From positions 1 to 36,921 of the forward strand of contig JADLAB010000285.1 of the NCBI GenBank assembly GCA_020848455.1: a DNA stretch of 36,921 nucleotides, in the 5' to 3' direction. Shown here piece by piece: positions 1,175 to 2,834 of the stretch (the stretch's first letter is position 1; each line of letters starts with the position of its first letter). The notes below the pieces were generated by a model that saw nothing but the letters and a program-made list of their open reading frames with translations, made no database searches and was not told the origin of the DNA. A program made the translations under genes and the position numbers. This DNA comes from Polyangiaceae bacterium. Lineage in GTDB: Bacteria > Myxococcota_A > Polyangia > Polyangiales > Polyangiaceae.

Positions 1175-2149
<975 letters not shown>

Positions 2150-2202: not shown

Positions 2203-2256
2203 GTTCAGTATATTGGACGCGTTCACCATGTCAATCACCAGTTCGACATGTTGAAC
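2203..2256. promoter_or_regulatory. Three GTTC-type operator-like repeats between cysK and the XRE regulator
   Basis: GTTC-led 16-mers begin at 2203 (GTTCAGTATATTGGAC), 2221 (GTTCACCATGTCAATC) and 2241 (GTTCGACATGTTGAAC). The third is an almost perfect palindrome with one mismatched pair. The first is a palindrome with two mismatched pairs, and the second is only a half-site. Spacing is 18 and 20 bp, about two helical turns. Site 1 covers the cysK -10, site 2 covers its -35, and site 3 is upstream, which fits repression by cooperative binding. The obvious candidate binder is the divergently encoded XRE-cupin protein. Confidence 0.6.
2207..2234 (-). promoter_or_regulatory. cysK promoter (TTGACA-16-TATACT)
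   Basis: Read on the minus strand, TTGACA (2234-2229) and TATACT (2212-2207) are separated by 16 nt. This is the best sigma-70-like promoter in the window. Transcription would begin near 2200, giving a leader of about 50 nt before the cysK ATG at 2149. Confidence 0.75.
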
Positions 2257-2273
2257 ACCCCGGGAGCACAGCC

Positions 2274-2834
2274 GTGGACGACATCAACACGCAGGTCGCC
2301 GAGCGCCTGCGCCGCCTGCGCCGCAGCGCCAACCTGAGCCTCGAGGAGCTCGCCCAGCGCTCGGGCGTGAGCCGCGGCATGCTGAGCCAGATCGAGACGC
2401 TGAAGACCAACCCGACCATCGCAGTCGTGTGGAAGATCGCGCGCGGGCTCGGGGTCTCGTTCGCGGAGCTCGTCGGCGAGGAGACGGAGCCCGAGCCCGT
2501 GCGCCTGTCGCGCGCCGCCGACGCCGACTACCTCTACTCGGCCGACCGCGCGTTCCGCAGCCGGCCGCTGCTCGCCAACGTGCCCGGCCACAAGGTCGAG
2601 CTCTACGCGCTGCGGCTCGAGGCCGGGGGCGCGGAGGACGCCGACGCGCACCCGCCGGGGAGCTTCGAGGAAGTGTTCGTCACGAGCGGCAGGCTCGCGC
2701 TCAGCCTCGGTGCGGAGCGCCACGAGCTAGCCCCGGGCGACGGGCTCTTCTTCCGCGCCGACCGGCCGCACCGCTACGAGGCGCTCGGGCGCCGCGCCTT
2801 CGAGGGGCTGTCGCTCATCCTGTACGCCGGCTGA
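2274..2834 (+). CDS. XRE-family transcriptional regulator with C-terminal cupin sensor
   Basis: This 186-residue protein has an HTH_3 DNA-binding domain at about 9-63 (LEELAQRSGVSRGMLSQIE) and a cupin_2 domain at about 105-185 (HPPGSFEEVFVTSG, LAPGDGLFFRADRPHRYE). Such proteins usually sense a small metabolite through the cupin barrel and control a neighbouring gene. I chose GTG 2274 because GGGAG lies 7 nt upstream and the family HTH begins directly after it. A longer in-frame reading back to 2148 would overlap the operators and gives non-family sequence. Divergence from cysK suggests control of cysteine or sulfur metabolism; that part is inference. Confidence 0.9.
   Translation: MDDINTQVAERLRRLRRSANLSLEELAQRSGVSRGMLSQIETLKTNPTIAVVWKIARGLGVSFAELVGEETEPEPVRLSRAADADYLYSADRAFRSRPLLANVPGHKVELYALRLEAGGAEDADAHPPGSFEEVFVTSGRLALSLGAERHELAPGDGLFFRADRPHRYEALGRRAFEGLSLILYAG

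Follow-up and report, generated by a model that had tools for sequence, protein, structure and literature searches.

A conserved palindromic operator module at the cysK promoter of a Polyangiaceae bacterium and a SutR-like XRE-cupin protein as its predicted repressor

The promoter of cysK in the window (the whole stretch of 36,921 nucleotides of Polyangiaceae DNA analysed here) is overlapped by imperfect palindromes that are conserved in related genomes, recur at other sulfur genes and are associated with a family of XRE-cupin regulators, one member of which is encoded divergently from cysK. This SutR-like protein is quite probably an autoregulated repressor of a small cysteine regulon, acting through the palindromes at cysK. 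The palindromes and the promoter module to which they belong are real and broader in distribution than a preliminary description of this DNA had indicated, and weaker in two details, namely the middle unit of the array and the helix face on which the sites lie.

The cysK promoter and its overlapping palindromes

The cysK gene, encoding cysteine synthase A, is an open reading frame on the minus strand at positions 1175..2149 (PALP domain, 1.2e-70; TIGR01139, 441 bits against a cut-off of 351). A 124-bp intergenic region separates it from the divergent, plus-strand gene of the SutR-like XRE-cupin regulator (2274..2834), which starts at a GTG codon, encodes HTH_3 (1.1e-16) and Cupin_2 (1.3e-10) domains, as the preliminary description had recognized, and is flanked in the window by cysK and a DEAD-box gene. 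The cysK promoter reads TTGACA-16-TATACT on the minus strand (2234..2207), matches the consensus at 11 of 12 positions and is the sole sigma-70-like site in the first 5 kb of the window (0.1 expected from shuffles). On the plus strand, the regulator gene is preceded by a candidate ribosome-binding site, GGGAG (2262..2266), and by a candidate -10 hexamer, CATGTT (2247..2252), where more distant relatives carry a TAT-like sequence; no -35 hexamer was found for this candidate -10.

Three GTTC-led 16-mers, starting at positions 2203, 2221 and 2241 and hence separated by steps of 18 and 20 bp, overlap this region, and both their positions and the promoter agree with the preliminary description. Unit 1 (GTTCAGTATATTGGAC, 2203..2218) covers the cysK -10 hexamer TATACT (minus strand, 2207..2212), carries 13 of the 14 consensus letters (equalled in 0 of 1000 shuffles) and recurs as a unit at two other promoters of the window genome. 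Unit 2 (GTTCACCATGTCAATC, 2221..2236) covers the -35 hexamer TTGACA (minus strand, 2229..2234) and is weak, perhaps a single arm. Unit 3 (GTTCGACATGTTGAAC, 2241..2256) is separated from unit 1 by a 38-bp step, is located upstream of the -35 and contains the candidate -10 of the regulator gene. The motif GTTCNNCATGTTGAAC, at up to three mismatches, matched the window seven times, five of them inside the array, against 0.38 expected, and the generic operator score of the 124-bp intergenic region was reached by none of 1000 dinucleotide shuffles.

These three units had been presented as an array of operators, a view that stands for two of them. Units 1 and 3 are real imperfect palindromes, with 6 and 7 of 8 self-complementary pairs, respectively. 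Unit 2 has 4 of 8 such pairs and carries the -35, and is therefore hardly a palindrome; what is conserved in it is mostly the -35 hexamer, and we rejected it as an equal third operator. Since an arm resembling TGGAC or TGAAC is left beside the -35 in several modules, a half-site at this position is possible. The proposal that the sites share one face of the helix had to be abandoned: steps of 18 bp (1.71 turns, 257 degrees) and 38 bp (3.62 turns, 223 degrees) rule out same-face binding of all sites, the 20-bp step (326 degrees) being the sole spacing near in phase.

The cysK leader also contains an inverted repeat, CGCGGAC...GTCCGCG (2173-2195), which resembles a terminator on the plus strand; it is retained in the sister genome and, by eye, absent from the other relatives.

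The palindrome in relatives and across the XRE-cupin family

Orthologs of the regulator, defined by at least 60% identity, were collected from two sources, whole genomes of relatives and named contigs; the scan of the latter covered close relatives only. Seven genomes, the window genome and six others, contained one. The regulator of the sister genome (L035, G001) is 96% identical to that of the window and the other five are 60-73% identical; in all seven genomes cysK is divergent from the regulator gene across a gap of 124-157 bp. The seven cysK-linked regulators form a single clade (support 99/99), and cysK was found near none of 25 homologs of 45-51% identity when up to 1.5 kb on each side was inspected. 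The clade is rare, given that the window's own protein was the only ortholog detected at 1e-55 among 377 sampled genomes of the phylum.

The preliminary description had made its case depend on the palindromes persisting in relatives that keep the gene pair, and they do persist: all seven intergenic regions contain the promoter, with TTGAC[AGT] at the -35 and a similar hexamer at the place of the -10, together with at least one good palindrome. By eye, the steps between units are 18 and 20 bp in the window, L035, L039 and L040, 19 and 20 bp in L037, and 19 and 21 bp in L036 and L038. In no region did more than 1 of 1000 shuffles equal the two best sites, and individual units have decayed in some relatives (unit 1 of L038 keeps 8 of 14 letters, unit 3 of L039 is degenerate and the units of L040 keep 11 of 14). 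To separate operator from promoter, all 256 four-letter arms were scored around the same core; across the six non-redundant intergenic regions GTTC ranked first, with or without the TATA core.

Around cysK genes without an adjacent regulator (26 loci in relatives), GTCC arms ranked third of 256 and GTTC 21st, and at the seven closest of these loci GTCC ranked first and GTTC seventh. Four such promoters (L045, L047, L048 and L050) have GTCC-type palindromes with a TATA-like core, which are suggestive of weaker SutR-type sites and not enough for us to claim them.

The palindrome also accompanies the regulator family away from cysK. Fifteen of the 25 distant homologs, none linked to cysK, have an upstream site scoring at least 10/12, and 12 of these sites were judged convincing; at six of the 25, a site of at least 9/12 was absent upstream. 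The palindrome is often doubled at these loci, and all six pairs scoring at least 10/12 are spaced by 20 bp, five of the six coming from close relatives. When arms were scored alone at the distant homologs, GTTC ranked 68th of 256, lost in GC-rich noise; with the core included it ranked second, behind CTTC. The recognition helix SGVSRxxLSQ is nearly constant among cysK-linked regulators and distant homologs alike. Thus, the palindrome tracks the regulator even without cysK, which points to the XRE-cupin protein as the predicted binder, as had been proposed from the gene pair. In a group of close relatives of one family (L010, L011, L012, L015 and L016), the second operator of the XRE-cupin gene overlaps the likely ATG start (ATTCACTATGTCGAAG).

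The window genome yielded no second full-length XRE-cupin protein of the same type. The sister genome encodes a second one, a paralog of 44% identity that could share sites. It belongs to a sulfur cluster on contig C277 (L152, 160-9814), where the gene order is an NMT1-like binding protein and an ABC ATPase, sulfite/nitrite reductase, cysH, cysD, cysN and the XRE-cupin gene, cysD and cysN being named from their translations and Pfam domains; the gap between cysH and cysD contains two operator-like sites 20 bp apart (GTCTGTTGTAGCGAAC, GTCTGTTATGCTAGAC). An XRE-cupin homolog likewise lies beside cysH, cysD and cysN in G009. Checked with a small panel of sulfur genes, 2 of 35 distant-homolog loci had sulfur-gene neighbours.

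A composite promoter-operator module and its candidate targets

A scan of the genome with the single operator, at up to two or three mismatches, returned mostly chance sites in coding DNA, so that a composite including the -35 was needed. The composite TTGAC-N11-GTTCANTATACTGAAC, at up to three mismatches, has three occurrences in the window genome; the reversed control gave 0 and 0, and 0.008 were expected. Since the pattern was drawn from these same three places, their number is no independent test; it is their identity that is informative. One is cysK itself (C288), another precedes the gene of a second cysteine synthase A (C384; 516 bits, cut-off 387), and the third is upstream of a DUF4395 gene followed by a carbonic anhydrase (C498), where a second palindrome is found 38 bp upstream, at the same distance as unit 3 from unit 1 at cysK. 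The same three modules are present in the sister genome. Between the two genomes, the flanks of the second cysteine synthase module have diverged, with the -35 and operator letters unchanged.

In 10 genomes, a looser composite (N11 or N12) gave 13 matches with at most one mismatch, 10 of them at sulfur genes or DUF4395. The six perfect matches all belong to this class: four are the DUF4395 and second cysteine synthase modules of both the window genome (G000) and the sister genome, and two, in G194, precede cysH (phosphoadenylyl-sulfate reductase, 280 bits, cut-off 154) and a cysteine-synthase-like gene whose best model is cysKM (281 bits, under the cut-off of 344). The seven matches with one mismatch comprise cysK of G000, G001 and G017, a cysteine-synthase-like gene of G193, and three loci not taken as sulfur genes (L094, L123 and L126, the gene at L126 not being identified). 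Seven of the 13 matches, all at sulfur or DUF4395 genes, are accompanied by another operator that scores at least 9/12 at a distance of 38 or 40 bp; the corresponding score at L094, L123 and L126 is only 6 or 7. The -10 is covered by an operator in every module. This is the only site of the second cysteine synthase module, and at cysK of G017 the second site is poor. The third cysteine synthase gene of the window genome (C137) has no good operator site.

The DUF4395 gene (L073 5361-5894) stands under a cysteine-type operator in two genomes, which suggests a role for its product in sulfur metabolism.

Two other near-matches to the composite, at C598 in the window genome (L076 3822-3837, two mismatches) and at C164 in the sister genome (L123, one mismatch), were not counted as targets; both lie near an impB/mucB-family gene and resemble a LexA box, which we presume them to be, the two motifs sharing GTTCAG. 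A further site, at C281, differs from the operator by one mismatch, and by eye a matching promoter is absent there.

Predicted mode of action and relation to known regulators

The regulator has the XRE-cupin layout, with HTH_3 at residues 12-66 and Cupin_2 at residues 114-177, both above cut-off, and its predicted structure (mean pLDDT 90.9, pTM 0.60) contains both domains. H126, E132 and H166 of the cupin domain are invariant in 31 homologs as well as in E. coli SutR, and judging from this conservation they could hold a metal or a ligand. Assignment to PuuR was not supported (NCBIfam PRK09943, 33.8 bits against a cut-off of 211). The best PDB match, by both sequence (1.6e-19) and fold (5.6e-18), is 1y9q, an HTH_3-family regulator of Vibrio cholerae whose domain arrangement is unlike that of the model (rmsd 9.6 over the whole chain) and whose depositors' title names no function.

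In the model that we consider most likely, a dimer of the XRE-cupin protein (2274-2834) recognizes the 16-bp palindrome GTTC-R-N-N-A-T-N-N-Y-G-A-A-C. The dimers at cysK would sit on unit 1, which spans the -10, and on unit 3, close to the -35 on its upstream side, possibly with a weaker third dimer or a half-site over the -35 itself, and occupancy of units 1 and 3 would shut out RNA polymerase. The operator over the -10 in all modules suggests repression; most modules add another close upstream of the -35, an arrangement that fits exclusion of the polymerase. Because unit 3 covers what is probably the start region of the regulator's own transcript, autoregulation is to be expected, and the protein would limit its own synthesis. 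Besides cysK, the same module would place the second cysteine synthase and the DUF4395 gene under this control in the window genome; in relatives it would do so for cysH and a further cysteine synthase. We envisage the cupin domain as the sensor of sulfur status, its signal being cysteine, O-acetylserine, a metal or a thiol adduct; a shortage of cysteine would then cause the protein to leave the DNA.

It is improbable, in our assessment, that the XRE-cupin protein binds as proposed but activates cysK, or acts in both directions, units 3 and 2, which lie upstream of the -35 and on it, serving as activator sites. The XRE-cupin regulators of Pseudomonas (ErfA, PsdR, PauR and others), as described in PMC7901475, inhibit neighbouring genes and bind palindromes. 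Activation would suit the seven modules that have an operator upstream of the -35 (at 38 or 40 bp) and the annotation of E. coli SutR as a dual regulator, yet one operator covers the -10 itself in every module, the cysK promoter is already near consensus and the second cysteine synthase has a -10 site only.

We give still less credence to a different binder, for example a LexA-like protein or an XRE protein encoded elsewhere, that would make the XRE-cupin protein a bystander. Three other helix-turn-helix stretches of the window genome do match the first domain of the regulator, and the weaker look-alike site at C598 lies near an impB/mucB-family gene, where we would expect a LexA box; however, the palindrome follows the XRE-cupin family even where cysK is absent, and sulfur targets do not fit LexA. 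Finally, although the -35 and -10 account for much of the conservation and unit 2 is weak, it is very unlikely that the repeats are no more than chance added to a strong promoter that related genomes retain, since GTTC remains first of 256 when the arms are scored alone, unit 3 lies outside the cysK hexamers and the genome-wide search yields sulfur genes.

CysB, of the LysR type, and CymR, of the Rrf2 type, govern the same kind of genes and belong to protein families unrelated to the XRE-cupin regulator. The genome of E. coli has CysB, whereas no CysB-family protein (NF009327, 1e-30) was found in any of the seven ortholog genomes, the control search being positive in E. coli. The idea that the locus represents a different mode of sulfur control is new only in part, since SutR (YdcN) of E. 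coli has been reported to regulate sulfur utilization (cited in PMC8464067 and PMC11332829). The window regulator aligns with SutR over its full length (31% identity over 184 residues, E 9e-28); SutR matches no NCBIfam model at 1e-20, so that this likeness lacks a curated test. In E. coli, sutR is divergent from ydcO and has ydcO and rlhA as neighbours, whereas the window regulator is divergent from cysK, and in view of this difference we call the protein SutR-like rather than SutR.

With the Pseudomonas proteins the regulator shares its domain order and, as predicted here, palindromic sites and a metabolic gene as adjacent target (PMC7901475), and the words 'cysteine' and 'sulfur' do not occur in the main text of that article. 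Conserved palindromes lie near both the regulator's own gene and the neighbouring cysK, where the protein is predicted to bind them. The kind of regulator is known from the SutR precedent, and the clade, the regulon and the module appear to be new; an XRE-cupin regulator of cysK, or its regulon, was not found in the literature searched, whose coverage excludes most subscription journals.

More tentatively, in this Myxococcota clade without CysB the XRE-cupin protein might be the master regulator of cysteine biosynthesis, governing cysteine synthases and sulfate reduction through the two-operator module and sensing sulfur status directly in its cupin pocket. If so, masters of the cysteine regulon would be of three kinds, CysB, CymR and this protein. 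Where CysB is absent, bacteria have to control their cysteine supply by other means, and the present data name a concrete candidate regulator, an operator and a target list in Myxococcota. They would also link the little-understood SutR of E. coli to a family-wide operator type, providing a defined DNA assay for a ligand search.

Upstream of E. coli sutR, two 16-bp palindromes (GTGCGTTATAGCGTAC, GTCCGTTATAACGCAC) follow the same plan as the window operator. They lie in the gap between ydcO and sutR (L042 2091-2106 and 2123-2138; GTNCGTTATARCGNAC), 32 bp apart, unlike the units of the window array, and are likely SutR sites.
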